From Platycnemis pennipes (lineage: Eukaryota > Arthropoda > Insecta > Odonata > Platycnemididae), in contig OW121853.1 in NCBI GenBank assembly GCA_933228895.1, positions 123,772,133 to 123,836,132 on the forward strand: a stretch of DNA of 64,000 bases, written 5' to 3'. Of this stretch, positions 4,046 through 63,950 are shown piece by piece. Made by a program: the position numbers and the translations under genes. The notes under the pieces are model-generated. The model did not search any database. It was not told the DNA's origin and saw only the letters and a list, made by a program, of their open reading frames with translations. Position 1 is the stretch's first letter. Every line of letters begins with the position of its first letter.

Positions 4046-4261
4046 CATCCATGCCCTGGGGGGGGTGCGTTTGAAGCCGTCGGGATTATCTCGAAAGGGT
4101 AACCAAGGAGTCACTTGGTACAAACACGAATGGTTCGAAAATTTAGTGCGTCTTAATTGCTCGTTACAATTGTTTTCACTTGATAAAAAGAGTCGTTTCA
4201 GGCGTTATGTGGTGTAATAACATAATTAAATAAGATTGGCAATTTTCCACAGAGAAATCTT

Positions 4262-4304
4262 TACTGCGACCGGTTTCGATGTGATACATCATCATCAGGT
4301 GACC
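4262..4304 (-). ncRNA. Hammerhead-ribozyme-like motif in FB-1 left arm
   Basis: Read on the minus strand: CTGATGA (4298-4292), then T, then a perfect 5-bp stem GATGT/ACATC with loop ATC, then GAAA (4277-4274), then the self-complementary ACCGGT stem III, then C (4268) at the NUH cleavage position (GTC). All core residues match the type I hammerhead consensus. Stem I is weak: only the first pair (G4267 with C4299) is canonical. Self-cleavage is therefore uncertain. Confidence 0.6.
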
Positions 4305-4664
4305 AAATCTCAACAAAGTCCAGTACATATACAAATGAGGGGAGGGACCGGGGGAAAACAAGGAGTGAGGGAAGAGGAAGGGAAGAGGGCCTAAACCAAG
4401 GGTGATAACGGAAAAAGGGGGAGAGGAGGGAGAACTGGTGCTAGGGGTGGGTGTTGGGGAAACTCAACTCCTCAAACAGCCAGGGTTTCCCAGTTCTATG
4501 TGTGGTTTTCCAACACCCACCCCTAGCACCAGTTCTCCTTCCTCTCCCCCTTTTTCTGGAGTCACCCTTGGTTTTGGCCCTCTTCCCCTCCTCTTCCCTC
4601 ACTCCTTGTTTTTTTCCCCGGTCCCTCCCCTCATTTGTATATGTACTGGAGTTTGTTGAGATTT

Positions 4665-4706
4665 GGTCAACTGATGATGATGAATCACATCGAAACCGGT
4701 CGCAGT
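4665..4706 (+). ncRNA. Hammerhead-ribozyme-like motif in FB-1 right arm
   Basis: CTGATGA at 4671-4677, stem II GATG/CATC (the fifth pair of the other arm is lost to A.A), GAAA at 4692-4695, self-complementary ACCGGT and cleavage triplet GTC at 4699-4701. It is the inverted counterpart of the left-arm motif with two or three substitutions. Stem I is not convincingly paired. Confidence 0.55.
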
Positions 4707-4937
4707 AAATAATTTCTTTGTGGAAAATTGCCAATCTTATTTAATTATGTTTTCACTTGAGTTTTTCTCGTCTGTTTCGATTATAGATGAGAATTAAACA
4801 CGAGAGTAAACAATGAATGAGGTTGCAATCGGCGGTTTCAGCTCATCATTTTCGCAAAACAATCCTGTTTATATCACGTGACTCCTTGGTTACCCATTCG
4901 AGATAATCCCGACGGTTTCAAACACAACCCCCCTACA

Positions 4938-7510: not shown

Positions 7511-9014
7511 ATGGGGAAGTACCGGCGAAAAACGGAACAGACACGGACAGAGGAGGATATGAGAATGGCGCTAAAAGCTTTCAGAGAGGGAAGAAGCATG
7601 AGGCATTCTGCCGAACTTTTCAATGTTCCCCGTACTTGCCTCTATCGTAGGATAGTAGCGGATACGGAAAAATTGAAGACAAGAGGGGGGCAAAATGTCT
7701 TCTCAGTGGAAGAAGAGGAAGCATTAATTAGAATAATTCTTAGGTTATGTGAAATTGGGTTCGGATTGACAAGAGATGATGTCATGAATGTGGCATATGA
7801 ATTTTCCATTGAAAACAACATAAAAAACAATTTCTGTGCGTGAAAAAAACGAGCAGGCAAGGATTGGTTCTTGAATTTTATATCTAGACTTCCTTTAAGT
7901 CTTCGAAAACCCGAAGGTTTGTCAGTGGCTCGAGCTGAGGGTTGTTGCGTGCTGCAATGCAAGTGGACATTACATACCACCTTTTGTAATTTTTAAGGGG
8001 AAAAAGTTCCATAAGGAATGGGAGGATGGATTTCCGTTGGGATCTAAAATTTTTATGTCCGATTCAGGGTGGATAAATGAGGATCTTTTTTTGGAGTGGC
8101 TAAAGCACTTTCAAGCAAACAGGATTCCTGGCCGATGCATTTTAGTCCTCGATGGCCACGCATCACACAAGACTCTTCCTGTTCTACTGTTCTGTGAAAG
8201 GAATGAGATCACTCTCTTATCACTGCCCAGCCACACTACACAAAGGTTTCAACCTCTGGATAGGTCTTTTTATAAACCATTAAAGACATACTACGATATT
8301 GAAACAAATGCGTATATGACAGTTTGTAAGGGGGATAGAAAGATGACTAAATTTAATTTTGGTCGGCTTTTTCGAAATGCATGGAGCAAAGCCGCAACAA
8401 TCGGCAACGCTGAAAATGGATTCCGATCAACAGGAATATTCCCTCTGAATCCGGGTATCCTGACGGAGTTAGATCTTCATCCTTCTAATCTCGGAAGCTC
8501 ACACGCCCCAGAAGAAGCATCAACTCCTTTTTCGACAAATTCATCTTCCGATCAAAAATTAACTGCCAGTCCCTATGAAGAAAGCCAATCCTCGACATCA
8601 ACATCTGAGGAATCGTCAAATACTTTGGGTAGGTCTTTCCATAATTTACTACCTACACCAGAAAAAAGAATGAAAGTCAATGTGAAAAGGTCAAGAAAGC
8701 AAATTGCTCAAATACTTACTTCTCCAGCTGTAATAGAAGAAACAAAGCAACGACTGAAGAAACAAAATATTAGGAACGCGAAGGGAACTTGCAGAAACTT
8801 ATATGAATCATCTTCAGATAGGGACGGCAATACTGAGAATGGGGAAAACTCAGCTGATGATACGCTTTGTGGCTTCTGCTCCAAGTCTTATAATTGTGCG
8901 AATTCGTCAACGTTTAGAGACTGGATTAAGTGCATGAAGTGTAATTGTTGGTACCATGAGCTGTGTGTAGGTGCTAAGGGGCGAGATAAATTTACTTGTG
9001 GTAAATGTGCTTAA
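7511..9014 (+). pseudogene. Pogo/Tigger-like transposase with PHD-like finger, broken
   Basis: A cut-and-paste transposase remnant. The first part (7511-7843) has a pipsqueak/CENP-B-type helix-turn-helix (MRHSAELFNVPRTCLYRRIV), the DNA-binding domain. An in-frame TGA at 7841 interrupts it, and the same frame continues into AGKDWFLNFISR ... LRKPEGLSVARAEG to about 7938. The frame then jumps to NASGHYIPPFVIFKGK (from about 7958), so roughly 100-150 codons are missing. These include the first catalytic Asp, normally in NVDETG. The remaining DDE core keeps Asp 2 (LVLDGHASHK) and Asp 3 (QPLDRSFYKPLK); the long ORF 8037-9014 covers this part. The last ~50 residues hold a PHD-like zinc finger (CGFC ... 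CMKCNCWYHELC ... CGKC). PHD-type C-termini are known in some animal pogo-like transposases. This copy cannot be active. Confidence 0.92.
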
Positions 9015-19589: not shown

Positions 19590-21210
19590 TTTGAACTTTA
19601 GATGCATGAACTATACATTGGAAGAGTTATACAACGGAAAAAATCTCAGCCGTAAAGCTATTGAAGAGGAAAGCGAAGTGGAAAAGGATGATATGGGGGC
19701 ATCAATATTAAGATCGGAATTTGACGGTGCAGTAAGGGACCTTCGGATACATAAGGCTTCTGGTATTGATGATGTTCCTGTAGAAATAATTAAAAATGCA
19801 GGAGAGAAGACATTAACTCATCTTTACAAAACCATCTGCGACATGTACTCAACAGGATAAATTCCAAGGTACTTAAAGAAAAACATCATCACTCCTATTC
19901 CCACAAAGAAGAGAGTGGAGAAATGCGAAAATTTTAGAACTATACGCCTGACGACAAATGCATCGGAGATACTGCCCAGGATCATCTACAGAAGAACAGA
20001 ACGAAAAGCAGAGGAGTTCCTGGATGAAGATCAATTTGGATTCAGGAAAAGTAAGGGTACAAGGGAAGCAAAATTGGCCCTTAGACTACTCATAGAGAAG
20101 AGAATGGAGAAGAACAAGCCGACGTTCATTGCATTTGTGGTTTTAGAGAAGGCTTTTGATTACGTGGATTGGGATTCAATGCTTGGAATTCTTAATGGAA
20201 TTGGAGTGCCCTTCAATGACCGAAGAAGTATACACAGTCTGTACAAAAACCATGTAGCTGTGATTAAATCTGGACCCAGCTGTGAAGAGGCAAGAATAAG
20301 GAAAGGAGTGAGTCAAGGCTGGGTATTGTCTCCCGTAATTTTTAATGTTTACATCGAGAGAGCCATCAATGAAATCAAAGAGAAGTCTTCTGGAGTGACT
20401 ATCCACGGAGAAAAAATAAGCAAGTTGCGATTCGCTGATGACATAGCACTCGTTATAGAGACAGAGAGGGATCTGAACAAGATTCTAGTAACCATGGAAA
20501 GGACAATGGCCAGCTGAAGATAAATAAGAAGTAAACTACTAGTAAGGTATTGGTGTGCAGCAAGAAAGAAGAGGCCAAAACCGATGTCAAATTAGGAAAA
20601 CAAAAACTCGATGAGGTGAAAGAGTTCTGTTACCTAGGAAGCCGAGTAACCAACGATGGACGAAGCAAGAAAGAAATAGTCACTGGAATAGCCCAGGCAA
20701 AGAGGGCATTCTATCAAAAGAAGAATCTACTAACAACTGGAAACATAAGCGTAGAAGTTAGGAAACAATTCATCAAAAAGTACATCTGGAGCGTGTTTCT
20801 CTATGGAAGTGAGGCATGGACAATGGCAGCAGCAGAAAAGAAAAGGGTGGAAGCATTCGAAATGTGGTGCTACAGAAAAATGATGAAGATTAAATGGATA
20901 GACCGAGTAACAAACGAAGAAGTCTTAAGAAGAGTGGGAGAAAAGAGAAGCCTGCTGAAAAAATTCTAAAAAGAAGGGACAACTTAATCAGCCATATCTT
21001 GAGACGCAATGGCCTGATGAAGACAATCGTCGAGGGAAAAGTGAACGGGAATAATGGAAATGGCAGGCCTCGTATGAGATACATGGAACAGGTTGTGAGG
21101 GATGTAAAAGAGAAGAATTACGTCACAATGAAAAGGTTGGCCGATACAAGAATCGAGTGGAAAGCTGCGTCAAACCAATCCTAGGATTGTTGACCAATGA
21201 TGATGATAAT
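19590..21210 (+). pseudogene. LINE-A (RTE-like) reverse transcriptase, largest copy
   Basis: A retrotransposon ORF covering most of the RT domain and the C-terminus; it would have copied its own RNA at a nicked target site. RT blocks: HKASGIDDVPVEIIKNAG; after an in-frame TAA at 19858, IITPIPTKK, FGFRKSKGTREA, AFVVLEKAFDYVDWDSM, GVSQGWVLSPVIFNVYI and the catalytic FADD box (LRFADDIALVIETERD, near 20430). Frameshifts near 20510 and 20965 separate the rest: EVKEFCYLGSRVTNDGRSKK, FLYGSEAWTMAAAEKKRVEA, WIDRVTNEEVLRRVG, then HILRRNGLMKTIVEGKVNG ... RIEWKAASNQS. The endonuclease domain is missing (5' truncation). The 3' end is ATTGTTGACCAATGATGATG. RTE/BovB-type by motif; the exact clade is inferred. 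Confidence 0.92.
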
Positions 21211-25380: not shown

Positions 25381-25526
25381 ATAATAACGTCAATTTCCAC
25401 AAAATAAAAGTTTTACTTCTGCCCGGATTTCAACGATGATGTTGTCAAGGACCTGGAGATATTGTTTCAAAATTGAAACCCGGGTAGAAGTAAAAATTAT
25501 ATATTGAGGAAAATTGACGTTATTAT
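25381..25526. repeat. Foldback element FB-3 (decayed hammerhead-like core)
   Basis: Arms ATAATAACGTCAATTTCC (25381 onward) and GGAAAATTGACGTTATTAT (25508-25526) are inverse. On the right arm TTGAAACCCGGGTAGAAG (about 25473-25490) keeps the GAAA, a self-complementary ACCCGGGT and an A at the NUH position. The left arm keeps GTTGAAATCCGGGC on the minus strand (rc of about 25420-25434). The CTGATGA box is lost in both. No clear TSD. Confidence 0.55.
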
Positions 25527-33837: not shown

Positions 33838-33904
33838 GGTTCAACCCGAAGGTGGTTATAATAAGAATGAATAAACTTGATTTTTCCACAAATTTTATTA
33901 CTTT

Positions 33905-33944
33905 CCACTACCCAGGTTTCGACGGTTAAGTCATCATCAGGTGA
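33905..33944 (-). ncRNA. Type I hammerhead-ribozyme-like motif (best in window)
   Basis: On the minus strand: stem I 5' side TCAC (33944-33941), CTGATGA (33940-33934), T, stem II GAC (33932-33930)/GTC (33923-33921) with loop TTAACC, GAAA (33920-33917), stem III from A33917 with CC/GG and U33910, A33909 at the cleavage position (GUA), then GTGG (33908-33905), which pairs with TCAC. All core residues are present. Stems II and III are short (3 bp), as in the minimal hammerheads described from Penelope-like elements. Confidence 0.7.
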
Positions 33945-33996
33945 TTGGTTATTCACCAATCACCTGATGATAACCAATCACCAATTGAATAACCAA

Positions 33997-34036
33997 TCAC
34001 CTGATGATGACTTAACCGTCGAAACCTGGGCAGTGC
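33997..34036 (+). ncRNA. Hammerhead-like motif, cleavage site mutated
   Basis: The inverse copy of the previous motif: TCAC, CTGATGA (34001-34007), GAC/GTC stem II, GAAA (34021-34024), but the cleavage triplet reads GGC instead of GTA, so self-cleavage is not expected. Stem I (TCAC with AGTG) is kept. Confidence 0.6.
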
Positions 34037-34345
34037 AAAATAATAATATTGTGGAAAAATCAAGTTTATTCATTCTTATTATAATGAATCGTTTCCACCA
34101 TGTCACGGCCGATAAAACTATCTACGGAAGGTGGTTTTTTTATTGGTGAGGGTAGAGCTCACCCCGTACTAAGCCATTGGCGTGTGAAATTCACACATTC
34201 AGGGTACAGGGGGCCAATTCCTTTCACTGGGCCACCTCCTATTTCCTACTAAGTTTTAAGATATAGAAAACAGAATCGCGAGCATTTTAAGAGGGGGTGT
34301 ACAGAATGGCTTCTACCCGGAGGCTTTTTCCACTGTAGGTCACCA

Positions 34346-41363: not shown

Positions 41364-41665
41364 ATCTACCTAATGAGGGTTGTGGTGGCCTAGTGGGCAG
41401 ACTGCTGGGCTACTGACCAGAGGGCCCCGGGTTCAAATCCCGGGAAAGAACCATTCTGGACACCTCTACCTAAAAGGCTCGCGATCCGATTTGCTGCGTG
41501 TCAGAACTTCGTAGGAAATCGCAGGTGGCCCACGGAAAGGAACTGGCCCCCCTACCCTGAATGTGTGGATTTCACACGCCATTGGCTTAGTACGGGGTGA
41601 GCTCTACTCTCACCTATCAAAACCAACCTTCGAGTTGAATCACTGAGTGAATGATCCACCTAATG
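41364..41665 (+). mobile_element. SINE-2, full length with 12-bp TSD
   Basis: The body 41376-41653 is flanked by ATCTACCTAATG (41364-41375) and ATCCACCTAATG (41654-41665), one mismatch. The tRNA-like head has GTGGTGGCCTAGTGGGCAGA and GGGTTCAAATCCCGGG. The body has GGCTCGCGATCCGATTT, CACACGCCATTGGC and GTGAGCTCTACTCTCACC, and the 3' end is CGAGTTGAATCACTGAGTG. It is the best-preserved SINE-2 copy. Confidence 0.9.
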
Positions 41666-47247: not shown

Positions 47248-47374
47248 CCGTGGCTAATTAAATAAGATTGGCAATTTTCCACAAATAATTTTCTTTGTGG
47301 AAAATTGCAAATCTTATTTAATTATGTTACTCCACCATATAACGCCTGAAACGACTCTTTTTTCCCGTGGCTAA
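47248..47374. mobile_element. Foldback element FB-5 (minimal), 10-bp TSD
   Basis: CCGTGGCTAA flanks the element (47248-47257 and 47365-47374). The element 47258-47364 has a palindrome (AATAAGATTGGCAATTTTCC ... GGAAAATTGCAAATCTTATT) whose arms are only about 30 bp with a loop of about 9. They are the outermost part of FB-1. The right side carries the asymmetric tail (ATGTTACTCCACCATATAAC, GCCTGAAACGACTC), the inverse of the FB-1 left tail. The hammerhead region is deleted. Confidence 0.82.
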
Positions 47375-52894: not shown

Positions 52895-53218
52895 CCAGGG
52901 GGCAGTGTTTGAAACCGTCGGGATTATCTCGAATAGGTAACCAAGGAGTCACGTGGGACCAACAAGAACGGTTCGAAAATTTGATGTACATATTTGAATC
53001 ACTCGTAATAATCTAAATAATTGGATTGTAATTGATTTTTTCTCGTCCATCGTGAACACAGGGCCCCCGGATGAGAAAAATTCAAGTGAAAAATTACTGA
53101 GATTATTTCGAGCAATTTAAACAAACCTAAATTTCCTAACTATGCGTGTTTGTACCACGTGATTATTTGGTTACCTATTCGAGATAATCTCGACGGTTTC
53201 TAGCACACCCTCCCAGGG
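52895..53218. mobile_element. MITE-6 copy, uninterrupted
   Basis: Left end CCAGGGGGCAGTGTTTGAAA, GTCGGGATTATCTCGAATAG and GGTAACCAAGGAGTCACGTG; right end CACGTGATTATTTGGTTACC, TATTCGAGATAATCTCGACG and GGTTTC...CCCAGGG. The inverted ends are about 80 bp and imperfect. No ORF. Confidence 0.78.
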
Positions 53219-53682: not shown

Positions 53683-53945
53683 TCGGTCAACAATCCTAAT
53701 ATTAGTTTTAACGCAGCTCTCCACTCTACCAACTAACCTCATCATGCACTCAATACTTTGCAGCGTAACTATGTGGAAATTCATGGTGAAATAAAAAATC
53801 CAACTCCTACGTATATTTCCACTTAAATTTAATAACTAACCGTTGAAACTAGTTGTGCCAAATACTTTTAAGTGGAAATATACATAGGTTTTAGATTTTT
53901 TTATTTAACCTCTTCATATTACCTACTTGTAATTCAATTACCATA
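53683..53945 (-). repeat. LINE-A 3' end, split by foldback FB-4
   Basis: Minus strand: rc of ATCATCTTAATCGGTCAACA and ATCCTAATATTAGTTTTAAC and GCAGCTCTCCACTC, the LINE-A 3' end, then a break at 53746-53905, then rc of CTCTTCATATTACCTACTTG. Confidence 0.72.
53734..53917. mobile_element. Foldback element FB-4, 12-bp TSD
   Basis: TAACCTCATCAT (53734-53745) and TAACCTCTTCAT (53906-53917), one mismatch, flank the element 53746-53905. Arms GGTGAAATAAAAAATC and its inverse GATTTTTTTATTTAACC with TATTTCCACTTAAA and TTTAAGTGGAAATATA. The left tail (GCAGCGTAACTATGTGG) resembles the inverted FB-5 tail. CGTTGAAACTAGTTGTG (53841-53857) keeps GAAA, the self-complementary ACTAGT and a U at the NUH site; CTGATGA is not recognisable. 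The host LINE-A shows the empty site. Confidence 0.8.
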
Positions 53946-63144: not shown

Positions 63145-63950
63145 CCTCGCTAGGTCGGGTTGATGTGTTGTCTAGAGTACTGGCCTCCTATCCCGAGGCC
63201 CGGATTCGAATCCCTTCACTTGCGAATTCTTAATTGGTGCACCAGTCCCTACCATAAGAGAGCACAATAGGCAGAATAGAAAAAAGTTAGGTACGAAAAA
63301 AAATATGCACAGTAGTCTGAAGTGCATGATGAATGTTTAAGAATTACTAACAGATGCCTGATTGGGGAATACCGATAAATGTATAAAGGAAAACGTTTTT
63401 CTAACCAGTAATCAATTCATTAATGTATGAGAAAACGAACGGATTCAGGGGTAACTTTGTGAAATTTTTCCATGGTGGAAATAACACAATGTGTTGAAAC
63501 CCGAGTCGTGAATAAATTTATAAAGTGAAATGTGCAAAGTTATTTATTTCCATCATTAATGTATAGTTACCAACCACCTAGTTGCAAGTGAACCTTATAT
63601 CTAACCTGGCTCGTTAAAGTAGTAGTAAGGCATCTCGTAGTTGCATGCAAGTAGTGAATCTTAAGTGATTTTAACCCCCTGCCACGCACCCTCGCGGTGG
63701 CTCGCAGGGTATCACGTAAACGTACTTATGTGCCTTGTTGAGAGCACTTCGAGTCCAGTACTCCGCCCGTCGGATAGGACGCAAACTCGTGGTCCCTTTG
63801 GCAAGGAGGATTGCCGACGGCGGGTTTCTCTCCACCCTTCCTCCGTTCTCTGAAAACTCCTACCTTTACCCAGCTACCCACCTATCGTCTCTGGTCGCAC
63901 AAAGGTCGCTATTATCGGTCTCCTCTTACAAAACTACCAATTTCTGAAGT
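63145..63950 (+). repeat. SINE-1 copy split by LINE-C
   Basis: The head at 63148-63241 (GGTCGGGTTGATGTGTTGTC, TAGAGTACTGGCCTCCTATC, GGATTCGAATCCC) and tail at 63733-63945 (AGTCCAGTACTCCGCCCGTC, GACGGCGGGTTTCTCTCC, ACCCACCTATCGTCTC) are the two halves of a SINE-1. Confidence 0.78.
63242..63730 (+). repeat. LINE-C 3' fragment inside SINE-1
   Basis: ACCATAAGAGAGCACAATAG, GTAGTCTGAAGTGCATGATG, then AT-rich filler, CCACCTAGTTGCAAGTGAAC, and the tail CCCCTGCCACGCACCCTCGC to TATCACGTAAACGT. The segment 63345-63540 between the ORF end and the UTR is not LINE-C-like and may be another insertion. Confidence 0.75.

Follow-up and report, generated by a model that had tools for sequence, protein, structure and literature searches.

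What kind of element places a complete hammerhead-like ribozyme core within the arm of a palindrome is the question raised by FB-2, a 269-base hairpin-like insert at 33858-34126 of a 64,000-nucleotide stretch of Platycnemis pennipes DNA (contig OW121853.1). This whole stretch is referred to as the window, and coordinates without a locus name are positions within it. The initial annotation described FB-2 as an inverted element; the palindrome arms and their minimal hammerhead, type I and Penelope-like, stand, but the description was incomplete, as the element appears to be the end-pair of a Penelope-like retroelement. This assignment is made because relatives of FB-2 carry reverse-transcriptase (RT) ORFs between or beside the same ends. 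Taken as a whole, the favored explanation, to which we assign a probability of roughly 0.8, is that FB-2 comprises two Penelope-like pseudo-LTRs on their own, arranged head to head (divergent), a solo pair that would have been made by two-ended priming. Judged from its sequence, each arm is the putative 5' part of the element RNA, comprising the minimal hammerhead and then the pre-ORF region, and one arm keeps a tail of ~40 nt.

Structure of the FB-2 insertion

FB-2 is a discrete insertion flanked by exact 10-bp target-site duplications (GAAGGTGGTT), of which the left copy (33848-33857) is flush with the insert and the right copy lies at 34127-34136. When the insert is removed, the joined flanks align across the site with two insert-free related repeats near 650 and 41632. 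The target is a dispersed repeat found at 650-900, 41382-41632, and 34127-34320, two copies of which display a tRNA-like stretch (CCCGGGATTTGAAC) by eye.

The inverted pseudo-LTR arm, which has no tail, occupies 33858-33944 on the minus strand and is 100% identical to an arm of the genomic copy L351 up to the common no-tail end. The direct arm lies at 33997-34084 on the plus strand and is followed, 3' of this right arm only, by a 42-nt tail (34085-34126, plus strand) with an open frame (MNRFHHVTADKTIY); arm and tail together are 94.7% identical to L351. In the repeat search, the arms pair along nearly their full length, and the central junction between them (33945-33996) holds a third partial copy of ACCAATCACCTGATGAT at 33955-33974.

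The hammerhead motif

The minimal type I hammerhead motif lies at 33905-33944 on the minus strand, and the earlier claim of a complete hammerhead-like core in type I order at this place is borne out, with all core bases present. Along the minus strand, the 5' side of stem I (TCAC) is located at 33944-33941, the core CTGATGA at 33940-33934, an extra T at 33933, stem II (GAC/GTC) within 33932-33921, GAAA at 33920-33917, ACCTGGGT at 33917-33910, A17 at 33909, and GTGG at 33908-33905; the predicted cut between 33909 and 33908, also proposed earlier, agrees with this layout. The corresponding RNA, UCAC-CUGAUGA-U-GAC-UUAACC-GUC-GAAACCUGGGUA-GUGG, contains every conserved core base, i.e., in the conventional numbering of hammerhead core positions, C3, U4, G5, A6, G8, A9, G12, A13, A14, the A15.1–U16.1 pair, and H17. 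Stem II does not directly follow A9 in this copy, one U being inserted between them. In the monomer, stem I has 4 bp (one of them G-U), stem II has 3 bp after the extra U, and stem III, closed by a 4-nt loop, has just 2 bp; in a dimer, ACCUGGGU self-pairs to give a stem III of 8 bp. The second copy on the opposite strand (33997-34036, plus) is mutated, as had been noted: the same 30-mer at 34001-34030 is followed by C and AGTGC, so that U16.1 is changed to C and stem I is shortened by the loss of its fourth pair.

A loose descriptor (the core, 0-1 inserted nt, stem II of at least 3 bp, A15.1–U16.1 plus one pair, and stem I of at least 4 bp) finds the FB-2 minus copy as its sole match in the window, and 4 of 300 dinucleotide shuffles contain any match (mean 0.013). 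The palindromic stem III was rejected as standalone evidence, self-complementary 6- or 8-mers ending in T following 61 of the 1115 GAAA sites of the window. The hammerhead region is contained in 51 arms from the same genome, FB-2's own two arms included, and the 40-mer of the FB-2 minus strand is identical in 36 of them; on these comparisons, the hammerhead is considered intact by descent, not by shown selection.

Covariance models and the extra U

The initial annotation had proposed an Infernal search with Rfam models as a check. No hammerhead match to FB-2 was obtained at the gathering threshold, and none at E ≤ 10. This silence is weak evidence against the motif, because Rfam also missed control hammerheads with the same core: at gathering, three sets of loci from the phage collection (6, 8, and 12 loci, with L003 and L004 occurring in two of the sets), whose motifs are with or without the insertion, gave no hammerhead at the motif position in any locus, and none was reported in L001, L005, or L012 at E ≤ 1. 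Two Rfam hammerhead matches in the control loci lie elsewhere (L017 2656-2723 and L110 4701-4768). Rfam thus misses a common U-insert hammerhead core.

The prevalence of this insert was apparent in IMG/VR, where the pattern CACCTGATGATG..CGAAACC occurs in 14 stretches, 11 of them distinct. In L001, L003, L004, L005, L008, and L012, a stem II of 4-7 bp forms only if one U is skipped; five of these six loci pass a scripted stem I and III test, and L008 has a type III layout by eye. With A or C instead of U at the insert place, 0 of 10 IMG/VR cases pass. A survey that required GGCC stems and allowed any inserted letter yielded at least 130 distinct cases in 282 loci, 14 of which had been retrieved with a T-specific pattern. 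Among the matches listed (130 distinct one-nt cases), the inserted letter is T in 123, G in 3, A in 3, and C in 1, and a loose stem I and III test is passed by 116, 3, 2, and 1 of these, respectively, and by 123 of the 134 listed matches that have no insertion. Viral contigs thus commonly contain hammerheads in which a single unpaired U separates A9 from stem II (L001, L003-L005, L008, L012, and many of L106-L223). Since U dominates one-nt insertions in the IMG/VR hammerheads, the single U after A9 is ordinary natural variation. No account of it was found in the literature searched, including the consulted part of PMC3088659, most subscription papers lying outside the search.

The extra U had at first been taken as part of a start codon, because the AUG frame of a second end-pair in the window, FB-1, is open and the ORF of PAc is described, in the part of the report consulted, as beginning at stem II (PMC11167929). 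The frame of the AUG made by A9-U-G in FB-1 is open through arm and tail, with 37 codons from the AUG just before it. This reading was rejected: in the FB-2 family, the AUG is followed by ACT TAA. Moreover, among the 123 U-insert hammerheads of IMG/VR, the AUG frame gave no support, reaching at least 40 codons in 39 cases, whereas the two remaining frames do so in 29 and 45.

Relatives within the window

The FB-1 end-pair (4184-4747, minus strand) carries CTGATGA-T-GATG..CATC-GAAACCGGTC in both arms and has its tail at the low-coordinate end. It is bounded by a 13-bp target duplication (4171-4183 and 4748-4760) and is inserted in an inverted-repeat element (4059-4933). This target has a second copy at 52898-53218, with which the flanks of FB-1, once joined, can be aligned (70%). 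The hammerhead of FB-1 has the core of FB-2 but a different stem II (GATG/CATC), and its ACCGGU is self-complementary; it is likely inactive, because at most one stem I pair can be formed (GCAG).

FB-3 (47258-47364, plus strand) is a short relative without the hammerhead, a 107-bp palindromic end-pair that consists of outer arms and the same tail only and is flanked by the 10-bp duplication CCGTGGCTAA (47248-47257 and 47365-47374). Its right arm starts about 5 nt past the predicted cut site of the FB-1 sequence, which is a single case. The tails of FB-1, FB-2, and FB-3 are mutually alignable. Over 24 codons, FB-1 and FB-3 differ by 3 synonymous and 2 non-synonymous changes, too few for a conclusion on coding constraint. 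Protein searches returned no homologue of the FB-1 N-terminal peptide, Pfam returned nothing for three peptides, and a nucleotide search of phages gave short weak matches only (best E 0.9).

Weaker, diverged candidate palindromes with GAAA are found at 25381-25526 (profile E 0.0034 and 0.019), 53785-53910 (0.15), and 63455-63556 (0.69). They carry the self-complementary or nearly self-complementary strings ACCCGGGT, ACTAGT, and ACCCGAGT and are possibly older end-pairs. Other mobile elements of the window include an ORF with a DDE_1 transposase domain at 7899-9014, whose nearest named relative, at 46% identity, belongs to Bacillus rossius, a stick insect (unnamed relatives reaching 53%), and an RVT_1 ORF at 19861-20517 that belongs to another retroelement, the surrounding repeats of which recur in the window.

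Copies elsewhere in the genome

A search of the species' own genome (1.79 Gb) with FB-2 gave at least 88 matches, from 40 scored of 839 first-look candidates. The loci examined, 8 from the search plus 20 and 11 further regions, were picked by top score, favoring at least one tail. RT ORFs lie between the ends in L355 and L357 and beside one end in L352, and Pfam RVT_1 is above the cut-off in these three of the five ORFs scanned; L356 and L363 gave no Pfam match at all. GIY-YIG was not matched by Pfam at E ≤ 0.01 in the five ORFs; GVYQLECECSAVYIGQTGRQ..EH near the end of the L356 and L357 ORFs is GIY-YIG-like by eye only. No complete ORF was seen among the copies examined, and FB-2 itself has none. 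In L346 (1-9901), Penelope-like ends and C-terminal parts of the ORF recur every 2.0-2.8 kb as a partial tandem array, in which three ends are cut at query position 44.

Outer ends were consistent in arrangement. Among the first 28 loci from this genome, with L346 and 8 single-arm loci set aside, all 19 two-arm loci are divergent with exactly one tail (~40 nt), and 18 of them have an exact duplication of 7-15 bp no more than 6 nt from the ends. In the enlarged set, from which 13 single-arm loci, L346, and one overlapping locus were left out, every one of the 24 two-arm loci has divergent arms and a single tail, and the duplication (7-15 bp) is present in 23. Outer ends were measured in 67 arms of at least 40 nt from 38 loci: the tail ends at query positions 128-131 in 41 arms and the end without a tail at 86-94 in 22, the rest being a single end at 104 and, within L346, three at 44.

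Inner ends and a possible capped transcript start

The 12 shortest (solo) copies are 227-288 bp long and have no ORF. Among their 24 arms, 22 were measured at the inner end, and 15 of these stop 7-10 nt upstream of CTGATGA; the two arms of FB-2 stop 4 nt upstream of the core, outside this cluster, and the other five have inner ends at 17-83 nt. In 28 of 30 occurrences (repeats kept), the first T of TATATATA and the G of the common stop GTTATTCAC lie 31 nt apart, which is the distance expected of a TATA-driven start; the common arm stop thus lies ~31 nt after the TATA box. In the arms that stop at exactly 9 nt (n = 9), the next letter is G in 8, where longer copies have T. The chance of this is about 0.001 (binomial, with p = 1/3 since a 9-nt stop excludes T). 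Copying of the cap would leave such an added G, as in other retroelements; microhomology at the junction could be an alternative source of the extra G.

The state of the ribozyme in the copied RNA can be read from the same arms. Of the 67, 63 begin at or before query position 3 and therefore hold the 5' half of the ribozyme, which indicates that the templates were mostly uncut; the other four begin at 6, 7, 7, and 21. A 25-nt piece in L370 begins at 64, past the cut site. For the copies examined, this suggests that ribozyme cutting was not used for most of these insertions.

Proposed mechanism and alternative explanations

We tentatively propose, at somewhat less than even odds for the joint claim, that integration of Penelope-like elements proceeds by target-primed reverse transcription from two ends, such that each of the two cut strands serves as primer at its own fixed internal site of the RNA and cDNA synthesis continues on both to the capped 5' end of RNA left uncut by the hammerhead; foldback-like solo pairs such as FB-2 would be the short product that records transcript start and cap, and FB-3 may be a rare ribozyme-cut product. 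The RT-endonuclease of the element would cut both target strands 7-15 bp apart, reverse transcription would start at a proximal site at one end and at the tail site at the other, synthesis of each cDNA would proceed as far as the capped 5' terminus of a short transcript, and the two products would be joined head to head. RNA reading through from an upstream unit would give, by the same process, copies with an ORF between the ends, and the hammerhead would ride along uncut. Such both-strand priming on short capped RNAs would be expected to leave the trace that is observed, with two fixed outer ends, one tail, and inner ends located at the likely start. According to the part consulted of a 2024 in vitro study of an Anolis element, both strands are cut and extended, reverse transcription starts internally, the tail sits between two RT start sites, and the later insertion steps are yet to be validated (PMC11167929).

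Within the same family, the inverted arm might instead arise by self-priming, as for rotifer Penelope elements, the cDNA end snapping back and copying itself. Self-priming has been proposed from palindromes at inverted junctions and, on an antisense template, is favored for head-to-head pairs in the sections consulted (PMC3846280), and the center of FB-2 holds nested snapback-like repeats. It accounts for palindromes, but not for two different fixed outer ends: a snapback predicts equal outer ends, whereas in all 24 two-arm loci the two arms end at distinct fixed positions. The inner points can also differ between the arms of one copy (31 and 21 in L340, 17 and 57 in L341). Self-priming is regarded as an unlikely rival of two-ended priming. 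An origin as a foldback or MITE-type DNA transposon with a chance hammerhead-like string would suit the long palindrome, the short target duplications, and the other inverted-repeat elements of the window. It was ruled out as highly improbable by duplications that vary from 7 to 15 bp in place of a fixed length, by termini made non-identical by the tail at one end, and by sister copies in which the same ends bracket RT ORFs.

A retrozyme-like role, in which the hammerhead would be active in FB-2 transcripts as a monomer or dimer and process them, is improbable, even though the minus-strand core is intact and a double hammerhead results when two 40-mers are folded together (-16.6 kcal/mol versus -5.3 for each alone). 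The free monomer folds otherwise, the monomer hammerhead fold scoring +0.1; for sequences of 55 nt, the best dimer fold is a structure other than the double hammerhead; and the entire FB-2 minus strand folds as a hairpin of -162.6 kcal/mol. Furthermore, the inverted arms offer no direct hammerhead repeat for circle formation, and the plus copy is broken. The hammerhead is probably silent in FB-2 itself, because it would be trapped in a long hairpin in any transcript of the finished palindrome. In the consulted part of the in vitro study, the published Penelope hammerhead cleaves only with its protein present, and its cleavage is not needed (PMC11167929).

Comparison with known systems

Small Penelope hammerhead variants are said, by Lunse et al. 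in 2017, to cleave as dimers, and the diminished, self-complementary stem III of the present motifs (ACCUGGGU in FB-2, ACCGGU in FB-1) appears similar to that reported for these variants. Penelope-like elements are known to have inverted pLTRs, duplications of 8-10 bp, and a tail on one inverted pLTR, as far as covered by the part consulted (PMC3846280). With EN-containing Penelope/Poseidon elements, as described in the consulted parts of two sources, FB-2 and its family share pseudo-LTRs in an inverted pair, a one-sided tail of ~30-40 nt, short duplications, a hammerhead near the border of pLTR and ORF, and TATATATA in the pLTR (PMC3846280, PMC11167929), and sister copies of FB-2 may resemble these elements, to the extent that the latter are described there, in having an RT ORF with a GIY-YIG-like end (by eye). 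In contrast, FB-2 consists of two ends only, with no ORF, and the AUG inside the hammerhead of its family opens only MMT-stop.

Metazoan and plant retrozymes, as described in the parts consulted, are likewise non-coding, hammerhead-bearing derivatives of retroelements; however, they have tandem or direct terminal repeats and give circles, whereas FB-2 is an inverted pair (PMC7229834, PMC4918200). The hammerheads of IMG/VR viral contigs share the core, many with the extra U, but have a longer stem III in the examples seen and an unrelated context. The Penelope-like minimal hammerhead pattern occurs in 0 stretches of IMG/VR; the 55 stretches that it matches in GTDB genomes, with a U-register stem II of 3 bp at best, were taken as chance background.

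Implications

The ribozyme and element families are already known, and what is new is the short form and its junction signature; solo pairs of inverted pLTRs joined in this way were not found described in the literature searched, which excluded most subscription papers. Repeats taken for palindromic 'foldback' elements can be the ends of retroelements. Many short two-ended copies in one genome offer a direct view of where priming took place at either end, of where the RNA began, and of whether the ribozyme had cut it, and they thereby bear on the insertion route of Penelope-like elements and on the role of their hammerhead.
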